A DNA stretch of 64,000 nt from Saccharothrix ecbatanensis (GTDB taxonomy: Bacteria; Actinomycetota; Actinomycetes; Mycobacteriales; Pseudonocardiaceae): positions 5,828,001 through 5,892,000 of the forward strand of contig NZ_JACHMO010000001.1 in assembly GCF_014205015.1 (NCBI RefSeq), given 5' to 3'. Positions 50,526 to 63,476 of the stretch are shown here, in pieces. Below the pieces are notes generated by a model. The model worked only from the letters and a program-made list of their open reading frames with translations, was not told the DNA's origin and searched no databases. Position numbers and translations under genes: made by a program. Position 1 is the first letter of the stretch, and every line of letters begins with the position of its first letter.

Positions 50526-52436
50526 ATGGCCGAGGACTTCAACCGGTACTGCGACCTGACGATGCGGGGCGGGGCGACCAGTGGCGTCGTGTACCCGTGG
50601 GCTGTTGTGGAGTTGGCTGAGCACTACCGCTTCCGGTCGTTGGGCGGGGCTTCGGCCGGGGCCATCGGAGCCGCGTTCACGGCCGCCGCCGAGAAGGGGC
50701 GGGAACGGGACGGGTTCCGGAAGCTCAAGGAGATCATCGACTGGTTCGCCGCGCCGGGTTGGCGGATGGCGCAACTCTTCCAGCCCAGCGAGCACACCCG
50801 GAAGCTGTACCGGATCGTGGCGGCCTCGATGCAGCGCCGCGACTCGACCGGACGGAGTGCGTTGACGTGCATGCTCCTCGCCCTGATCAGCGCGATCGGC
50901 CGGCGGGCACGCGTCTTCCTCGGCCTGGCGCTGGCGTTGTGGCTGGTCGGGCCAACCCTCTGGTTCCACGCGATCGAGTGGGGTGCCACACCGACGTGGG
51001 TGCTGATCGGCCTCACGGTCGTGGTCCTTGTCAGCGTGCCGTGGATCGTGCTGCGAATCCTCCCGAACGGCCGTGACGCCTGGCTGCGGCGCATCGGCAC
51101 GGCACTGCTCCTCGTCCTCCCACTGATCCCGGTAGCCCTGGGCGCCCGGTGGACGGCGCAGAGCCTGGCGAGCGCGGCCACCGCAGCGGTGTGGTGGCTG
51201 GTGCTCGGGTTCGCGTTCGTCAGCGCCGTCGCGGTCACGTACGGCTTGAGCGCCAAGCGGTTCCTCGACCGGATGGCCACGACCATCCACTTCGGACTGA
51301 TCCCCGGCACCGGAACGTTCGAGCCGAACTTCTGGGACCGCCGCTGCGGCATCCCCGCGGCGACCGGTGTGCCCCCGTTGAGCGACTGGATCGCGGACCG
51401 GCTGGACGACCTGTCCGGCACGGCGGACCTCACGTTCGCCGACCTGACCACGAACCTCGTGCTGATGACCACGGACCTGTCCGAGGGCCGCCCCTACCGA
51501 CTGCCGTTCACCGAACCGCCCGCCGCGTGGCTGTTCTGCCCGACCTGCCTGAACACCGTTCTGCCCCAACGGATCGTCGCCAAGCTGGGCGACGAGGCCA
51601 CCGAGCACCGCTGCCCGCTGCACCCCGCCGAAACCGTCAAGGTGCTGCCGGAGAACCTCCCGGTCGCGCTGGCCGTGCGGATGAGCATGCCGCTGCCCGG
51701 CCTGATCGCGGCGGTCCCGCTGGTGCGCGCCGAACCGGAGCCGCGCGTGCACTGGTTCTCCGACGGCGGCATCACCAGCAACTTCCCGATCCACTTCTTC
51801 GACCACCTGCTCCCCCGCTGGCCGACGTTCGGCTTGAGCCTCCAGTCGTACCCGCCGGGCGACAACGGGGACGTGTGGCTGCCCGAGCAGGACGCGTCCA
51901 CCAGCGGCACGCCGTGGCGCGGTATAGGGCTGGTCCGGCATTTCGCCACGGCGATCCTCAACACCATGCTGGACTGGCGCGACACCACGCAGTCCGCTCT
52001 GCCCGGCTACCGGGGCCGGATCGCGCACGTCCGCGTCGGCGCGCTGGAGGGCGGCACGAACCTGTTCATGCGCCCCGAAACGATCCTCGCGCTGGCCGAA
52101 CGGGGTGCGAAGGCCGGACGGCTGCTGCGAACCCGGTTCACCGAGGACGACGCCACCAAGACCGACCGCTACCGCTGGATCCGGATGCGGCTGGCCATGC
52201 GGGAGTACCGGGAACTCGCCGAGCAGTCCGGAGAACGCGCCGACCTCTACCGCGACCTGACCGACCGCTACCGGATCCCGGAGGACCTGTACGACTGGTT
52301 CACCACGACCCCGACCACCGACCCGAACGCACGGGAGATCGGGCTGACGTTGGACGCGCTGGGCGCCGTGCCCCGCGACCCGTTCGACGGCGAGCCGCCC
52401 GTGGACCCGGACCTGCGCCTGACCCCACCGGAGTGA
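50526..52436 (+). CDS. Patatin-like phospholipase with inserted membrane helices
   Basis: 636 residues. Oxyanion loop GGATSG (15-20), nucleophile elbow GGASAG (Ser43), and the catalytic Asp in FSDGGITSNFP (about 412) make a complete Ser-Asp dyad of the patatin type. Between them (about 115-265) lie four hydrophobic helices, which is unusual and would embed the enzyme in the membrane. AGGAGGT five nt before ATG 50526 fixes the start. It is convergent with the RiPP YcaO gene and so not in its operon. Confidence 0.9.
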   Translation: MAEDFNRYCDLTMRGGATSGVVYPWAVVELAEHYRFRSLGGASAGAIGAAFTAAAEKGRERDGFRKLKEIIDWFAAPGWRMAQLFQPSEHTRKLYRIVAASMQRRDSTGRSALTCMLLALISAIGRRARVFLGLALALWLVGPTLWFHAIEWGATPTWVLIGLTVVVLVSVPWIVLRILPNGRDAWLRRIGTALLLVLPLIPVALGARWTAQSLASAATAAVWWLVLGFAFVSAVAVTYGLSAKRFLDRMATTIHFGLIPGTGTFEPNFWDRRCGIPAATGVPPLSDWIADRLDDLSGTADLTFADLTTNLVLMTTDLSEGRPYRLPFTEPPAAWLFCPTCLNTVLPQRIVAKLGDEATEHRCPLHPAETVKVLPENLPVALAVRMSMPLPGLIAAVPLVRAEPEPRVHWFSDGGITSNFPIHFFDHLLPRWPTFGLSLQSYPPGDNGDVWLPEQDASTSGTPWRGIGLVRHFATAILNTMLDWRDTTQSALPGYRGRIAHVRVGALEGGTNLFMRPETILALAERGAKAGRLLRTRFTEDDATKTDRYRWIRMRLAMREYRELAEQSGERADLYRDLTDRYRIPEDLYDWFTTTPTTDPNAREIGLTLDALGAVPRDPFDGEPPVDPDLRLTPPE

Positions 52437-52465: not shown

Positions 52466-53773
52466 TCACGGATACGGGTGTGGACGGGTGTTCGAGTAGC
52501 CGCCGTAGTCCCGGTAACGCGGGTGCCGTCCGGTCGGTGCGCCGGGCAGGCACAGGGGCAGGGTGTCGGGTGACCACACGCGCAGCACGTGGAAGCCGAG
52601 CCGGCGGACGTCGGGCGTGGTGAGGTCGCCGTACAGGAGTCGCTTCCCGGTGGCCCTGAACGCGGTCACGTAACGCCGCACGGTCGTGCGCACGTCGTCA
52701 CCCCGGTCCGGTGGCAGGTCGGACGCCCGCACCGCGTCGCACCGGGCGAAACGGTCCTCCACCACGTGCGCGTTCTCCGGCCTCGCGTAGTGGCTGACGT
52801 TGGCCTCCAAGTCGAGGAACAGCTCGTCACCCGGCGACGGCTCCTCCTCCGGGATGGTCGTGAGCGTCGTGCCCTCCAGCAACGCCTTGTGCATCGCGGA
52901 GGTCAGGCTGGTGTCGGCGCCCAGCCCGACGCTGACGGCCGGTCCCACGTCGCCGGCCGGCCGGATCAGGCACGCGACGGTGAACCCCGGCAGGTCGGGG
53001 CTCGGCAGCAGGTGGAACTCCGGGTACGGCGCGCGGCGGTCCCAGTACCGGGCGATGAGGCCCGCCAACGCCTCCGTCCGCTGGTCGAACGTGATGCGCG
53101 CGCTGCGGGTGGCGGTGTGCCAGTGGCCCATCGTCGCGTCGAGCTGCACCAGCTCCTGGATCGCGCTCAGCAGCGCCCTGGCCGGGTCGGTGTGCGTGGC
53201 GCTGCCCGTGGTCACGGCCGCGTGCAGCCACGGTTCGTCCTCGGCCAGGCGTGGCGGGTAGCCGACCAGCGTCGACTGCGCGGGCACGCACAGGTCCGGT
53301 CCGCCGGTCAGCGCGGCCATCCGCCACCAGCCCAGCGGCGCGTCGGGGTCGTAGGGGTCGAACAGGAAGTCCGGGTCCGCGAATTGCTCGTCGTCGAACA
53401 ACTCCACCGGTGCGAGTGACGGCCCGTCGAGGTCCGCCCGCGCGGCGAAGGCGAACCGGTGGTGCGCGGGGAACGCGTAGTGGCCGTACCGCTCGATCGA
53501 CTCGGCCAGGGTGCGGATCAGCGCGTCGTCCATGGTCACGGCGGCCGCGCCGATGTGGTGGCTGCCGGGTTTGGCCGGGCTTCCGCCGGTCAGGTGGTGC
53601 ACGCCGGTCAGGTCGCCGGTCGTGATCACCACCCGGGTGCCGTGCCGCGGCCTGGTGTGGAAACCGAGGTTGGGCATCAGGCCGGTGATGGGGCCGACGA
53701 TCCGCCGGGCCAGCGCGTCGATCGCGGCGCGCCGACCGGCCGTGCGGCGGACCACGAGCATCTCAGCGGCCAT
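52466..53773 (-). CDS. YcaO cyclodehydratase (azoline-forming, D protein)
   Basis: 435 residues of the YcaO fold. ATP/Mg sites are visible as RTLAESIERYGHYAFP (SxxxExxER) and SAIQELVQLDATMG (QxxxE-type). The protein ends NTRPHPYP, i.e. PxPxP, the C-terminal signature of azoline-forming YcaO enzymes, which activate backbone amides with ATP so that Ser, Thr or Cys side chains cyclise. Overlaps the upstream E1-like gene by 11 nt. With that gene it forms a split C/D cyclodehydratase. Confidence 0.94.
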   Translation of the reverse strand: MAAEMLVVRRTAGRRAAIDALARRIVGPITGLMPNLGFHTRPRHGTRVVITTGDLTGVHHLTGGSPAKPGSHHIGAAAVTMDDALIRTLAESIERYGHYAFPAHHRFAFAARADLDGPSLAPVELFDDEQFADPDFLFDPYDPDAPLGWWRMAALTGGPDLCVPAQSTLVGYPPRLAEDEPWLHAAVTTGSATHTDPARALLSAIQELVQLDATMGHWHTATRSARITFDQRTEALAGLIARYWDRRAPYPEFHLLPSPDLPGFTVACLIRPAGDVGPAVSVGLGADTSLTSAMHKALLEGTTLTTIPEEEPSPGDELFLDLEANVSHYARPENAHVVEDRFARCDAVRASDLPPDRGDDVRTTVRRYVTAFRATGKRLLYGDLTTPDVRRLGFHVLRVWSPDTLPLCLPGAPTGRHPRYRDYGGYSNTRPHPYP

Positions 53774-54800
53774 CGAGCCACGCCCGGACGTCGAAGTACA
53801 GCGCGGAATCGTCGCGCCGGCTCACCGTGCCGCACTCCGGGCAGCCCGGCACCGGCAGCACCTCGTTGACGGTGGTCTCCCACGTCGGCAGGTACAGGGC
53901 GAGCACCTTGCCCGCCGTGAACGCCGCACCGGTGTGCGCGTAGTTGACCACTTCCAGCGCCAGGTACGACGTGAGCAGACCGGTCAGCGCCGGCAGCAAC
54001 GGCATCCGACCGCCGGAGACCGCGGCCGTCGCCAGCGCGCGCTTGTAACGCAGGTACGCGTCCGCGCCGGTCAGGTTCATCAGCACGCGCTTCTCGAAGC
54101 AGGCGTAGCACGCCGTCCGCCCCGGCAGGAACGTCGGGCCGACGTGCAGGAAAGGCCCGTCGACCGCGCCGTGGATCCACGGCGTGCCCAGGTGCAGGCT
54201 CATCCGGTTGAGCACCGCGCAGCGCACCGGGTCGATCCGCGACCCGGCCCACACCAGCAGCGAGTCCCGCCAGTGCGCCAGCGGGGCCAGCCTCTCGGCC
54301 AGCTGCAACGGGTTCTCGGTCCACGCCGTGTCCGGGTCGTCCAGCACGCGCTGCGCGGTCTCGTCGGTGGCGTCGAGGACGGCGAGCTTCGGGTCGCCCG
54401 CCGTGAGCTGCTGCGCCAGCGGGCCGACCAGGTCCGGGTCGCCGAGCAGCCGCACGACCGGTGGCGCCACCGGGTCGGGACCGCGCAGCAGCCGGGCGTG
54501 CTCGTCCAGGTAGTGGTCCAGCGCGGACTGCGGGCTGTCCTCGACGGCCCCCAGCTCGCGCAGGTGGCCGAGCAGGTCGGCGAGTTCCCCGTCGGTGACG
54601 AGGCCGTCCGCCACGAGGTCCGCCGTGGTGTTCGTGCCGTCCAGTCGGGTGATCAGGTCGAGCAGCCGGCCGGTGCCGCCGCTGTCGCTGACCGTGTGGG
54701 ACGTGGTGTGCCAGACCCCCGCGCGGAGTTCGACCTCGTCGGGGCTGTGCGCCACGACCGTGAACGACCGCTTGATCCGGGGTGCGACCCGGTTGTCCAT
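53763..54800 (-). CDS. E1-like TOMM cyclodehydratase partner (C protein, leader-binding)
   Basis: 345 residues. N-terminal ~85 residues look like a RiPP recognition element winged helix (VELRAGVWHTTSHTVS.. LLDLITRLDGTNTTADLV). The rest is a ThiF/E1-like domain with two Cys pairs that bind zinc: ACYACFEKR and GCPECGTV. No adenylation glycine loop is clear, as expected for TOMM C proteins that present the leader peptide to YcaO. ATG 54800 (MDNRVAPRIKRSF), 3 nt after the dehydrogenase stop. Confidence 0.9.
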   Translation of the reverse strand: MDNRVAPRIKRSFTVVAHSPDEVELRAGVWHTTSHTVSDSGGTGRLLDLITRLDGTNTTADLVADGLVTDGELADLLGHLRELGAVEDSPQSALDHYLDEHARLLRGPDPVAPPVVRLLGDPDLVGPLAQQLTAGDPKLAVLDATDETAQRVLDDPDTAWTENPLQLAERLAPLAHWRDSLLVWAGSRIDPVRCAVLNRMSLHLGTPWIHGAVDGPFLHVGPTFLPGRTACYACFEKRVLMNLTGADAYLRYKRALATAAVSGGRMPLLPALTGLLTSYLALEVVNYAHTGAAFTAGKVLALYLPTWETTVNEVLPVPGCPECGTVSRRDDSALYFDVRAWLDGR

Positions 54801-54802
54801 CG

Positions 54803-55723
54803 TCACTCCGCTCGCGTGTGTGGTCGGCCGACCAACACCGTGTGCAGCAGGACGTGACGCAGGCCGTCGAGTCCCAGGCACCGGTTGGCCGGACCGTCGT
54901 AGAAGCTGGACCAGTCGGTGCTCGCCAGACCGAGGGCGGTGCCGGCCAGGTGCAGGTGCTCGGACATCGCCCCCACCTCGTGCAGCACCAGCCGCAGCCC
55001 TCTCGGCCCGTACTTGCGCATCGAGCGCCACGGGCGGGCCACCAGCGCGACGATCGCCGCCGCGCCGCGCGACGGGTCCTCGTCGCCGACGTCGATCAGG
55101 CCCTCGGTCAGGAAGTCCTCGACCACCCGTTCGTCATGGCACCGCTCGAACACGTCGAGTCGGGGCGCGTAGCGGTAGACCCCGCGCGCCAGATCGGTCA
55201 CGTCCAGCGCCAGCACCCAGAGCTCCACCGGGTAGAGGCCGCCGCCGCTGGGCGCCGCCCGGCCGGGCATCCGCTCGCCGTCCGGCTCCCTCGTCACCCC
55301 GGCCGCGGCACGCACCAGCGTGGCCAGTTCCCCGAACGGGACCGCGCCTCCGCCGAACGCCCGCGCGCTGCGCCGGTCCCCGATCACCCGGCCGAGCGGC
55401 GCGCGCAACTCGACCGACGGGGGCAGCTCGACCCGGTCCGGGACCGGCACGTCCTCGGTGTCGACCAGCGCGACCACCGGGACGAACCGCTCGTCCAGAT
55501 ATTCGCCGACCGCGTGCGGCACCTCGCGGTCGTGCCGGTCAAGGCGGGTCGAGATCAGGAATTCCTCGGCGACCTGCGGCGGCCCGCAGAAATCGAGGTG
55601 GCCGTACCGGTCGATCGGCGAGCGGAACGCCGTGGAGGTGAACGCGGGCGTCACCGCGCGATAAGAGTTCGTGCGCGTGGCAAGGGTGAGCAGGACGTCG
55701 TCGGGACGGGTCGGTTCGGCCAC
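54803..55723 (-). CDS. SagB-type FMN dehydrogenase (azoline oxidase)
   Basis: 306 residues of the SagB/ThcOx nitroreductase family. FMN phosphate binding GDRRSARAFGGG and the substrate/flavin segment APSGGGLYPVELW are clear, then STDWSSFYD and CLGLDGLRHVLLHTVLVGRP near the end. Oxidises azolines to aromatic azoles in TOMM/LAP pathways. GTG 55723 has ACGGAG at 6 nt; GTG 55756 would add 11 residues. Follows the precursor gene and hairpin in the same transcript. Confidence 0.92.
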   Translation of the reverse strand: MAEPTRPDDVLLTLATRTNSYRAVTPAFTSTAFRSPIDRYGHLDFCGPPQVAEEFLISTRLDRHDREVPHAVGEYLDERFVPVVALVDTEDVPVPDRVELPPSVELRAPLGRVIGDRRSARAFGGGAVPFGELATLVRAAAGVTREPDGERMPGRAAPSGGGLYPVELWVLALDVTDLARGVYRYAPRLDVFERCHDERVVEDFLTEGLIDVGDEDPSRGAAAIVALVARPWRSMRKYGPRGLRLVLHEVGAMSEHLHLAGTALGLASTDWSSFYDGPANRCLGLDGLRHVLLHTVLVGRPHTRAE

Positions 55724-55768: not shown

Positions 55769-55805
55769 GCGCTGCCTGGGCGCAGCGGGCGGTCCCAGGC
55801 AGCGC
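55769..55805 (-). terminator. Intra-operon hairpin after the precursor gene
   Basis: Perfect 12-bp stem GCGCTGCCTGGG / CCCAGGCAGCGC with a 13-nt loop, lying between the precursor stop (55815) and the dehydrogenase start. There is no T tract, so it may act as a partial terminator or a 3' stabiliser that gives more precursor than enzyme message. Confidence 0.75.
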
Positions 55806-55814
55806 AACCGGCGG

Positions 55815-55946
55815 TTACCTGCTCCTGCGCACGTCACAAGAGGTGGACGAGGACGAGCTGTACCCCATCTTCGTCAACGGTTTCGGCACGGTCGTCGTGT
55901 GCTTCGTGCTCAGGTTCTCGGTCGTTGACCTCACCTTGATCGACAT
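55815..55946 (-). CDS. RiPP precursor peptide with SSSSSTSC core (poly-azole)
   Basis: 43 residues from ATG 55946, with AAAGG at 8 nt and GGAG nearer. Leader begins MSIKVRSTTENLSTKHTTT and ends ..PLTKMGY. Residues 30-37 are SSSSSTSC, eight consecutive residues that a YcaO can cyclise (six Ser, one Thr, one Cys), followed by a six-residue basic follower DVRRSR and TAA. It is the first gene of an operon with the azole-forming enzymes. No similar small gene exists nearby. A serine run in a 43-residue frame at this place is hard to explain otherwise. Confidence 0.85.
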   Translation of the reverse strand: MSIKVRSTTENLSTKHTTTVPKPLTKMGYSSSSSTSCDVRRSR

Positions 55947-56145: not shown

Positions 56146-57255
56146 ATGTCCCAGGAGCACACGTCGACGGACCGCATCGAGCGGTTTGACCTGCCGGATG
56201 GCGGAACCGGCTGGTGGGTGGGCGGCTACCGGGAAGTGCGCGTGGTACTCGCGGACCCGAGGTTCAGCTCCGCGGCGGCGGCCCACCCCGACCACGCCGC
56301 GACGCGCCAGGTGCCGCTGGACCCGGACCTCATCCTCACCATGGACCCGCCCCGGCACACGAGGGTGCGCAAACCCGCCGTCCGGCAGTTCACCGCCGCG
56401 CACGCCGAACGGTTGCGCGGCTTCGTGGAACGCACGGCCGAGGACCTGCTCGACGGGTTCACCGAGCCGCCGGTCGACCTGGTCGAGCGGTTCGCCGCGC
56501 CGCTGACGTCGGCCGGGATCTGCGCCGCGCTGGACCTGCCGCCGGTCGACCACACCCGGCTGCGCGCGTGGGCGCGACCGCTGCTCGCGCTGGACGCGGA
56601 GCAGGCGGTCGGCGCCGCCGAGGCAGCCGTTGGGCTGACCACCTACCTGGCCCGGCTGCTCGACGACCCGGGCGTGTGGCGGGACGGAGCGGTGGCGGCC
56701 TCACTGGTGGCGGACCTCGAACCGGAGGAAGCGGGGCGGCTGCTCACGTTCCTCCTCATCTCCGGGCACGTGTCGACCTCCGTCCAGCTGGTGAACTGCG
56801 TGCTGGAGCTGCTGGTCCGGCCGACCGAGTGGCGGCGGCTGACGGACGACCCCGCGCTCGTCGACCGGGCGGTGGAGGAGCTGCTCCGGTTCAGCCCTCC
56901 GGAGTCCGGCGGGCTGGGTCCACGGCGGGCCGTCGAGGACGTCGAGCTGGCCGGGGTGCTGATCCGCACGGGCGACGTGGTCGTGCCTTGCACCAGGGAA
57001 GCCAACCTCGACCCGTCGGTGTTCCCCTCGGCCGACCGGCTCGACGTGACGCGTGAGGACTGCCGGCACCTGTCGTTCGGCCCCGGACGCCACCACTGCG
57101 TCGGCGCGCACCTGGCCCGCATGGAGCTCCAAGTCGCGCTGGGCGCGCTGGTGCGCAGGTTCCCCGGCCTCCGCCTCGCCGTGCCGCCGGACGGGCTGCA
57201 CCGCCGCAGCGGCCTCCAGTTCCGCGAGCTGGTCGAGCTACCGGTGAGCTGGTGA
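56146..57255 (+). CDS. Cytochrome P450 of the RiPP cluster, atypical I-helix
   Basis: 369 residues. ExxR (VEELLRF), heme loop SFGPGRHHCVGAHLARME with thiolate Cys, and MDPPRHTRVRKPAVRQF show a bacterial class I P450. The I-helix reads LLISGHVSTSVQLVN where most P450s have AGHETT/S, so the conserved acid before Thr is replaced by Val. That points to altered oxygen activation or a substrate-assisted mechanism. Divergent from the precursor operon and likely tailors its peptide. Confidence 0.93.
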   Translation: MSQEHTSTDRIERFDLPDGGTGWWVGGYREVRVVLADPRFSSAAAAHPDHAATRQVPLDPDLILTMDPPRHTRVRKPAVRQFTAAHAERLRGFVERTAEDLLDGFTEPPVDLVERFAAPLTSAGICAALDLPPVDHTRLRAWARPLLALDAEQAVGAAEAAVGLTTYLARLLDDPGVWRDGAVAASLVADLEPEEAGRLLTFLLISGHVSTSVQLVNCVLELLVRPTEWRRLTDDPALVDRAVEELLRFSPPESGGLGPRRAVEDVELAGVLIRTGDVVVPCTREANLDPSVFPSADRLDVTREDCRHLSFGPGRHHCVGAHLARMELQVALGALVRRFPGLRLAVPPDGLHRRSGLQFRELVELPVSW

Positions 57256-57260
57256 CCGGT

Positions 57261-58061
57261 TCACGCCTTGCGGCCCACCCCGGCGTACGCGTTGATGAAG
57301 GCGTCGTCCGAGTCCTTCCGCCAGTCAGACAGCGGCACGACACCCGGTTCCACGACGTCCAGCCCGGCGAAGAACGCGGCGACCTCGTCACCCGAGCGCA
57401 GCACCAGCGGGCTGTCGGTGCGCTGGTAGATGGCGTTCACCTTCTCACCGCTGCGCTGCTCGTCCTGCGACACGCCGTCCCAGCTGCCGTGCGAGATGGC
57501 GACGAAACTGCCCGGCGCCAACGCGTCGCGGTACCGGGCGATCGCCTGGTGCGGCTCGTCCGAGTCCGGCACGAAGTGCAGCACGGCGACCATCAGCAGG
57601 CCGATGGGCCGGTCGAAGTCGAGCGTCGCGCGGACCTCTTCGTTGCCCAGCACCGAGTCCGGGTCGCGCAGGTCGCCCTGGATGGCCACGGCGAGGGGGT
57701 TGTCGGCGAGCAGCGCGGTGCTGTGCGCGACCGCGACGGGCTCGACGTCGGCGTACACCACCCGTGCCGCCGGGTTGGACTGCTGGGCGATCTCGTGCAC
57801 GTTGCCCACGGTCGGGATGCCCGATCCCAGGTCCAGGAACTGGTCGATGCCCTGCGACAGCAGGTACCGCACGGCCCGGCGGAGGAACGAGCGGTTCGCG
57901 CGGGCCGCGCCGGACATGCCGGGGAAGATCTGCTCGACCGCTTTCGCCGCCTCGCGGTCCACCGCGAAGTTGTGCGACCCGCCCAGGAAGTAGTCGTACA
58001 TCCGGGCCGCGCTCGGCCGGTCCAGGTCCACCGATGACGGAACCCAGCTCGCCTGCTCCAT
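57261..58061 (-). CDS. DUF574 S-adenosylmethionine-dependent methyltransferase
   Basis: 266 residues. [20 protein letters not shown] (quoted at 20) is the opening of the actinomycete SAM-MT family DUF574/Methyltransf_19, with [19 protein letters not shown] (SAM site) and [14 protein letters not shown]. Members are numerous and mostly uncharacterised. Convergent with the P450 (6 nt between stops), so not in its operon; a role in the RiPP pathway is only possible. ATG 58061. Confidence 0.9.
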
Positions 58062-62660: not shown

Positions 62661-63476
62661 TCACACGACCGCGTCGCGGTCCGCGAGGAAGTCCTCCAGC
62701 ACGACCGGGGTCAGGCCGTCGAGCTTGCAGCGTTCGAGGAAGGCCAGGAAGTCCTCCACGAACGTGTGCCGGAAGTGCATGAGCACGATGTCGCCCGCGT
62801 TCAACCGGCCGCCCGCCTGGAACTGCACGACGCCGTCGTTGACCGCCGCGGTCCACATGACCAACGCCGTGAAACCGCAGTCGGCGGCGGCCCGGCGGGT
62901 GGTGTGGTCGAAGTTCCCGAACGGCGGCCGGAACAACTTCGGTTGCGCGCCCAGCTGCGCGCGGAGGAGGTCGGCGTTGCCGCAGATCTCGTCGCGCTGG
63001 AAGTCGTACGAAGTGCCGGTGAGGTCGGGGTGGGTCGCGGTGTGCGCGTGGACCCTCGCGGCGCCCTGGAAGGTCTTCCAGTAGTCCGCGTAACCGTCGA
63101 CGTGCTTGGAGTTGAGGAACAGCGTGGGCTCGACGCCGCTCTTGCGCATCAGCTCCAGCGCGGCGGGGTGGCGCACCGCGCCGTCGTCGATGGTGATGAA
63201 CACGTACGGGCGGTCGGTCGCGATCCGGCGGACCACCGGCACCATGCCGTCGGCGATCGGCGGCACGTGCTGCTGCGGTGTCCCGTAGGCGTACGGGTGC
63301 TGGAAGACGGGGACCGTGGTGCCGCCCGGACCCGGCAAGACCGTCGGCGGCGTGGTGGTGGTCGTCGTTGTCGTAGTGGTCGTAGTAGTCGTCGCCGGCG
63401 GCTGCGCTTCCGGCTCTGGTGCGCACGCCACCGCGATGACGGCCGCCACCGCGACCGCCAGTGCCCTCGGTCTCAT
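62661..63476 (-). CDS. Secreted polysaccharide deacetylase lipoprotein (NodB fold)
   Basis: 271 residues. Signal with lipobox AVIAVAC at residue ~18, then an uninterrupted ~14-residue poly-Thr linker, then NodB homology: VFITIDDGAVRHP (TxDDG), HTATHPDLTG (HxxxH), RPPFGNFD (RxPxG) and VLMHFRHTF. Residues for metal binding are present. Acts on cell-wall or extracellular polysaccharide (peptidoglycan or chitin). ATG 63476. Confidence 0.93.
   Translation of the reverse strand: MRPRALAVAVAAVIAVACAPEPEAQPPATTTTTTTTTTTTTTPPTVLPGPGGTTVPVFQHPYAYGTPQQHVPPIADGMVPVVRRIATDRPYVFITIDDGAVRHPAALELMRKSGVEPTLFLNSKHVDGYADYWKTFQGAARVHAHTATHPDLTGTSYDFQRDEICGNADLLRAQLGAQPKLFRPPFGNFDHTTRRAAADCGFTALVMWTAAVNDGVVQFQAGGRLNAGDIVLMHFRHTFVEDFLAFLERCKLDGLTPVVLEDFLADRDAVV

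Follow-up and report, generated by a model that had tools for sequence, protein, structure and literature searches.

A putative azole peptide precursor with an eight-residue Ser/Thr/Cys core in Saccharothrix ecbatanensis and its relatives in other actinobacteria

Results and discussion

Precursor peptide

The window, i.e. the complete stretch of 64,000 nucleotides analysed here, harbours a four-gene operon encoding a short precursor peptide, a SagB-type dehydrogenase, an E1-like protein and a YcaO protein, all on the minus strand (Table 1). We consider it likely that this locus is a BCD-type TOMM, or linear azole peptide, system in which the core would give up to eight adjacent azoles, the leader would be cut by an unlinked protease and the product would probably be linear.

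The 43-residue frame was located exactly where the first-pass annotation had placed it, at the head of the SagB/E1-like/YcaO operon, and translation confirmed the reading of residues 30–37 as SSSSSTSC, with a leader ahead and DVRRSR behind. Its product, MSIKVRSTTENLSTKHTTTVPKPLTKMGYSSSSSTSCDVRRSR, is encoded on the minus strand (55815–55946) from an ATG at 55946 to a TAA stop codon at 55815–55817, and a purine-rich GGCCGGAG is found 5′ of the ATG. We infer a division into a leader (residues 1–29), a core of six Ser, one Thr and one Cys, and a follower. Of the 280 ORFs of 25–100 aa in the window (lengths taken from the first start codon onwards), no other has a Ser/Thr/Cys run of at least seven residues; the six frames of the window at large hold five other such runs of at least eight. 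As a separate observation, 14 Thr codons follow each other at 63392 (minus strand), as low-complexity sequence in a polysaccharide-deacetylase frame (62661–63476).

Neither the precursor peptide nor its leader matches any Pfam or NCBIfam model. The precursor had been put forward as undescribed, and no description was found in the literature searched: among the matches listed, no title or abstract start dealt with the leader family or the loci, supplements and many subscription papers lying outside this search. Saccharothrix, Nonomuraea and Saccharopolyspora are not named in the main text of Cox et al. 2015 (PMC4603692). Judged by the comparisons presented below, the 43-residue frame is not a chance ORF, and the peptide is very probably the precursor of an azole-containing RiPP.

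Table 1 Features of the azole locus in the window
Feature	Position	Strand	Basis
Precursor peptide gene, 43 aa	55815..55946	-	ORF reading and homologues
Core codons, SSSSSTSC, residues 30–37, preceded by a conserved Gly-Tyr	55836..55859	-	
Follower, DVRRSR, residues 38–43	55818..55835	-	DVRRSK in homologue P0002
Hairpin, 12 bp, loop 13, nine nt past the precursor stop	55769..55805	-	
SagB-type azoline dehydrogenase	54803..55723	-	TIGR03605; Lys-Tyr in RSMRKYG
E1-like (C-type) cyclodehydratase partner, leader-binding	53763..54800	-	Profile, alignment, model
RRE-like N-terminal part of E1, approx. residues 1–90	54531..54800	-	AlphaFold model, boundary approximate
YcaO cyclodehydratase, C-terminal PHPYP	52466..53773	-	PF02624, alignment
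Cytochrome P450, divergent, possible tailoring enzyme (putative member of the locus)	56146..57255	+	Pfam, alignment, NRRL B-16348 fragments

Enzymes and neighbourhood

Profile searches identified all three enzymes. SagB scored 109.7 bits against TIGR03605 (cut-off 78.4), the E1-like protein 58.5 bits against TIGR03882 (cut-off 36.9) and YcaO 132.7 bits against PF02624 (cut-off 25.7); the YcaO score of 185.8 bits against TIGR03604 is under the cut-off of that model, 219.25. According to a script-made gene model, the SagB gene probably starts at GTG 55723, past the hairpin, rather than at GTG 55837, where the longest frame begins. Sequence searches of the PDB matched SagB to a putative nitroreductase, CyaGox, a SagB-type dehydrogenase and McbC, and the E1-like protein to TruD and LynD, while YcaO gave no PDB sequence match. 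With YcaO itself as query, a single YcaO match at E ≤ 0.001 was obtained in the genome (9.69 Mb, one contig). The AlphaFold model of the E1-like protein, built on five sequences and of modest confidence (mean pLDDT 67), opens with three strands followed by three helices, which we take to be the arrangement of an RRE. The structures closest to the model are TruD and LynD, followed by MccB and a chain of the McbBCD complex, with TM scores by query of 0.37–0.45.

Enzyme motifs were compared in alignments of the window with loci L031–L039 (L049–L053 left out), in which gene models shorten some rows. The C-terminus of YcaO reads HPYP in 10 of 10 aligned sequences and PHPYP in nine of them, the tenth being IHPYP in the seemingly decayed locus L039 (see below). 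The Lys-Tyr pair of SagB (RSMRKYG) is present in 9/9 aligned sequences, and two copies of CxxC are found in the E1-like protein in 10/10. The PHPYP end, the Lys-Tyr pair and the Cys pairs are presumably the functional motifs of these proteins, and as far as the aligned sequences go they are intact.

Past the operon, the next gene is patatin-like and convergent (50526–52436, plus strand). Among the 18 genes called at 44.9–63.9 kb, no ABC exporter, immunity gene or RiPP protease is recognisable, no Pfam match to a lanthipeptide-type dehydratase, the mark of thiopeptides and goadsporin, was obtained, and Lon is the sole recognisable protease. Five small genes of the 18 are devoid of Pfam matches and could be anything. 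An M48 peptidase frame is located further away, at 39.5–42.7 kb, and five PF02517 matches point to CAAX proteases in other parts of the genome. A tandem pair of CAAX-type protease matches (PF02517; L054, G000:C1:5933644–5934687), situated some 49 kb away from the operon, was set aside as unlinked to the locus, as 0/5 CAAX proteases of related clusters matched it (tblastn, E ≤ 1e-4). A Methyltransf_19 (PF04672) gene is situated at 57261–58061 (minus strand), convergent with the P450; its linkage to the azole locus appears doubtful, the same BLAST family being absent from L031–L039.

Hairpin following the precursor gene

In all 14 precursor loci a hairpin was identified 8–29 nt past the stop codon, with a perfect stem of 8–17 bp and a loop of 3–16; the stem sequences differ among groups. 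With loops of up to 20 permitted in loci and controls alike, stems of at least 8 bp occur in 14/14 loci versus 4.5% of 4000 random 80-nt stretches of the same sequences, and stems of at least 12 bp in 10/14 versus 0.43%. Limiting the loop to 12 leaves stems of only 6 bp in the window and 4 bp in the Saccharopolyspora loci. Speaking against the hairpin, a plain shuffle test on the 110 nt past the precursor gene of the window gave ordinary folding (z = −0.79), z-values between −1.8 and −4.1 being obtained for five others, and the hairpin region of the window displays neither a U-tract terminator pattern nor a sigma-70-like promoter pattern. In other RiPP operons the precursor message is held above the enzyme message, and by analogy the hairpin is likely to be an attenuator or processing site serving the same end.

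Related loci in other actinobacteria

The first-pass annotation had proposed to look for the peptide beside the enzymes in other genomes. Fifteen loci that keep E1 and YcaO were examined (the window, L031–L039 and L049–L053), and 14 of them carry a precursor upstream of SagB, either directly adjoining or with one gene intervening (L052, L053); the fifteenth lacks SagB as well. This speaks for the proposal, which was to fall if the peptide were not conserved where the enzymes are kept. Of the 14 loci other than the window, the 13 with a precursor come from Saccharopolyspora, Streptomycetaceae, Nonomuraea and two more genera in the family of the window; loci in one genus are not independent tests.

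Related peptides were collected by a profile search, by genome searches and by reading 5′ of SagB in five loci found through E1. The protein database holds one near homologue, P0002, with 90% identity over 91%. It keeps the leader and the follower (DVRRSK) around a core of seven residues, CSSSTSC, and stems from a 2.2-kb JGI contig that is probably metagenomic; P0003 and P0004, which represent the same peptide in shorter gene calls, were left out of the count. The window peptide itself is absent at E ≤ 0.001 from 59 relatives besides its own genome. Genome searches revealed related precursors in 3/54 genomes of the genus Nonomuraea (two known already) and in 5/394 genomes of the family to which Streptomyces sp. 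RPT161 belongs (one known already). An E1 search in the window's family identified 7/390 genomes, including its own and G001, and provided five new loci. In the protein database at least 18 proteins matched E1 at E ≤ 1e-20 (the 7,999 best-sharing candidates being scored), so that few close relatives seem to exist. Within the genus of the window, a YcaO match was found in 11 of 25 genomes; two are strong (1.5e-188 or better), from the genome itself and from Saccharothrix sp. NRRL B-16348, and the other nine are at 8.7e-12 or weaker. A Sphaerisporangium locus (L007) was dropped from the family (E1 35% over 105 residues). Viral contigs gave no YcaO relative; among plasmids, nine records showed distant matches, all short of 80% coverage, and were likewise discarded.

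Every core in the family is rich in Ser, Thr and Cys, in differing sequences and in single blocks of four to eight residues or two blocks totalling ten. Five core types can be distinguished: SSSSSTSC/CSSSTSC, CASSSS, TSSSSS/STTT, TSCCS/TCCCS and Cys-rich double blocks. With their flanks they read GY-SSSSSTSC-DVRRSR and GY-CSSSTSC-DVRRSK (Saccharothrix type), GCASSSSAA (Saccharopolyspora), APITSSSSSAA and APLSTTTIALTS (Nonomuraea), IPGT[SC]CC[SC]AA (Streptomycetaceae) and, from the two other genera in the family of the window, PGGCCSCAGCTSCSCG and PGASSCCAGCTSSSCG. The leaders are diverse apart from Glu10, which is invariant in the 15 aligned precursors (of 20 collected) and occurs in the contexts STTEN, STREN, STVEHR and SSTETLS. 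Changes among three Saccharopolyspora precursors fall mostly in third codon positions, with pairwise synonymous/nonsynonymous codons of 6/2, 12/3 and 12/3. In a midpoint-rooted YcaO tree of 15 rows, the window groups with NRRL B-16348 (100/99) and next with Saccharopolyspora (99/97), with Nonomuraea, as well as Streptomycetaceae together with L052/L053, standing apart.

In NRRL B-16348 (L039, the same place as L003:5282–7041) the E1 and YcaO frames are open, the precursor and SagB are absent, and two P450 fragments lie beside E1–YcaO. The best SagB match in this genome is only 34% identical, and the sequence thus looks like that of an azole locus in decay, with precursor and SagB deleted. As the nearest relative is devoid of both genes, the pathway can evidently be lost. 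A short AACAGCACG-type DNA repeat was noticed by eye just upstream.

P450 and accessory genes

The divergent P450 went unmentioned in the first reading of the window. It keeps the haem loop FGPGRHHCVG and carries Val where five other aligned P450s have the I-helix Glu. Its score to PDB entry 4z5p is 242.6 bits (phmmer) and that to the Streptomyces-cluster P450 162 bits (blastp), two programs that differ; the higher score to 4z5p suggests that it was probably recruited independently of the P450 in the Streptomyces clusters. A P450 as family-wide component was rejected, as the P450s of the window and of L031 are unmatched in L049–L053 and the BLAST family is absent from the Nonomuraea loci.

The accessory genes vary between branches. 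The divergent P450 is the only one in the window. The Streptomycetaceae loci feature a divergent P450, an O-methyltransferase, a CAAX protease and a luciferase-like oxidase (Pfam on L006; same accessory BLAST families in L031–L034), and a CMAS-like methyltransferase is located upstream in Nonomuraea L004 and L005. In both L052 and L053, SagB and E1 are separated by a HemW/HemN-related radical SAM gene, and a relative of the luciferase-like protein is present; L052 additionally encodes two CAAX proteases and gave a glyoxalase-like match that is weak and under its cut-off. The radical SAM gene accompanies Cys-rich double-block precursors (PGGCCSCAGCTSCSCG, PGASSCCAGCTSSSCG) in these two loci (L052:4688–12800, L053:4229–12290). 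HemN-like methyltransferases methylate thiazoles in thiopeptides, and by analogy the L052/L053 products may be C-methylated polythiazoles.

Comparison with known azole peptides

With BCD azole RiPPs in general (TOMMs) the locus shares a SagB-type B protein, an E1-like C protein and a YcaO D protein with a PxPxP-type end, as well as a short precursor composed of leader and Ser/Thr/Cys core, encoded beside the enzymes in 14/15 loci. Its peculiarities are a core of one uninterrupted Ser/Thr/Cys block of eight and the lack of a recognised transporter or immunity gene nearby. Plantazolicin, a linear polyazole made by BCD enzymes (PMC7231064), resembles the window system in its precursor (about 45 aa versus 43 aa), its enzymes and the existence of actinobacterial members (PMC4603692). 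Of the 13 members of that group, 10 have cores predicted to begin with Arg and 12 have clusters with a specific methyltransferase, and the cores consist of two azole blocks with nonpolar residues between them (PMC4603692). None of these features, N-terminal Arg, split blocks or specific methyltransferase, is seen at the present locus, where GY precedes and DVRRSR follows the single block. Of the earlier suggestion of a linear polyazole such as plantazolicin, the linear form is retained as the better fit and plantazolicin itself is abandoned. Mobilisins are likewise actinobacterial and rely on B, C and D proteins only, but their cyclodehydratase is fused and their core is poor in Cys, Ser and Thr, according to Cox et al. 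2015 (PMC4603692). Dehydrazoles were set aside, as the LanM-type dehydratase reported there (PMC10676384) is not seen here.

The telomestatin core had been given correctly as CTTSSSSS; the 42-residue precursor TlsC carries it, with the mutated Thr at residues 26 and 27 (PMC5469769). The same source lists tlsO, P, Q and R as required and peptidases S and T as raising the yield. YM-216391 relies on an eight-gene operon (ymI-BC) inside a 13-gene cluster (PMC10339500). Both systems resemble the window locus in being actinobacterial and in having a short precursor with a contiguous Ser-rich core, and telomestatin also in its SagB-like and YcaO enzymes and in the residues past the core. They differ by extra genes of their own (tlsO, R and peptidases S, T; the ymI-BC operon), whereas the window locus is minimal and its core length varies among relatives. 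This comparison was made by gene content; no second YcaO was found in the genome at E ≤ 0.001, and no gene of the TlsO/TlsR or YmBC/YmB1 kind was recognised among the 18 called genes. The proposed likeness to telomestatin and YM-216391 finds no support, the enzyme set being minimal and the core length not fixed at eight. A YM-216391/curacozole-type cluster was also sought in 394 Streptomycetaceae genomes with a DNA pattern for FI[IV]GSSSC. The one match, FIIGTSSC (L040/L041), was taken as chance; no match to the YcaO, SagB or E1 of the family was found there.

Proposed pathway and alternatives

YcaO, E1 and SagB jointly make azoles in studied TOMMs, so that core conversion is the expected chemistry; from the sequences, the core is very probably turned into an oxazole/thiazole chain by the three neighbouring enzymes. 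With the hairpin probably holding precursor mRNA in excess over enzyme mRNA, the E1-like protein would bind the leader via its N-terminal RRE and present the core to YcaO, which would cyclodehydrate Ser/Thr/Cys 30–37 to azolines at the expense of ATP. FMN-dependent SagB would then oxidise the azolines, for a contiguous series of at most six oxazoles, one methyloxazole and one thiazole. The leader would be removed by a protease encoded elsewhere, and the P450 may add an oxidation. The product would likely be an antibiotic or a signal, and is probably linear rather than macrocyclic: in P0002 the same flanks enclose seven core residues, block length is different in other branches, and no RiPP peptidase or cyclase is recognisable among the 18 called genes at 44.9–63.9 kb. 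Points against the pathway as a whole are the loss of precursor and SagB in NRRL B-16348, the YcaO score under the TIGR03604 cut-off, the ordinary folding in the shuffle test and the lack of a recognisable exporter or immunity gene among those 18 genes.

How far conversion proceeds is less certain. Azolation of part of the core, e.g. of the Cys and alternate Ser/Thr with azolines or free Ser left, is a possible if lesser alternative. Partial conversion is common in TOMMs, and to our knowledge there is no linear product with a contiguous run of more than five azoles. The presence of a SagB with its motif stands against it, in so far as this argues for oxidation, not for completeness. Conversely, the P450 might extend the chain by β-hydroxylating Tyr29, to form a ninth ring, a hydroxyphenyl-oxazole. 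The phenyloxazole of YM-216391 is made by a P450. In both Saccharothrix-type peptides the residues just ahead of the core are Gly-Tyr, and a P450 adjoins in the window, with fragments in NRRL B-16348. The YM-216391 ring derives from Phe (PMC7231064). We regard this as quite unlikely, since the Streptomyces-type clusters also have a divergent P450, seemingly not orthologous to that of the window, with no aromatic residue immediately ahead of their cores. In addition, the I-helix Glu of the five others aligned is replaced by Val in the P450 of the window.

A G-quadruplex-binding macrocycle like telomestatin, for which the eight-azole core would be cut on both sides and closed head-to-tail, appears very unlikely. 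The core equals CTTSSSSS in count and one-Cys make-up, and the telomestatin precursor likewise has residues past its core (PMC5469769); this reading is kept in consideration because a six-residue follower is present and conserved as DVRRSK in P0002. However, P0002 combines the same leader and follower with seven core residues, and no eight-ring geometry is preserved among related cores, which range from four to eight residues or comprise double blocks totalling ten. Moreover, one YcaO–E1–SagB set stands here against tlsO, P, Q, R and peptidases S and T, and no recognisable cyclase or RiPP peptidase is linked, Lon alone being found among the 18 called neighbours. It is extremely improbable that the frame is untranslated, with a distant peptide serving as substrate of the enzymes. 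Nothing speaks directly for it beyond the shortness of the peptide (43 aa) and its lack of a Pfam or NCBIfam match, and it is opposed by the conservation of the peptide in place across loci, the purine-rich site ahead of the ATG, the hairpin after the gene, the third-position codon changes in Saccharopolyspora and the database homologue at 90% identity. A more far-reaching version of the azole reading is unlikely. In it, the product would be a continuous polyazole, either a linear rod or a closed ring, with eight azoles or with nine if P450-oxidised Tyr29 contributes one. The locus would be a branch of an actinobacterial family that applies one leader type and one enzyme set to freely varied Ser/Thr/Cys blocks, as a naturally occurring library of ring orders and polyazole lengths.

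Conclusions

The azole peptide locus adds a newly recognised leader family, a hairpin after the precursor gene, a divergent P450 and a sister Saccharothrix locus devoid of precursor and SagB. Should the core be fully converted, an unusually long unbroken azole chain would arise from just three enzymes. The locus would then offer a compact route to polyazoles, which are known as scaffolds of DNA-quadruplex ligands and antibiotics. The five core types of the family allow direct tests of core tolerance with related enzymes.
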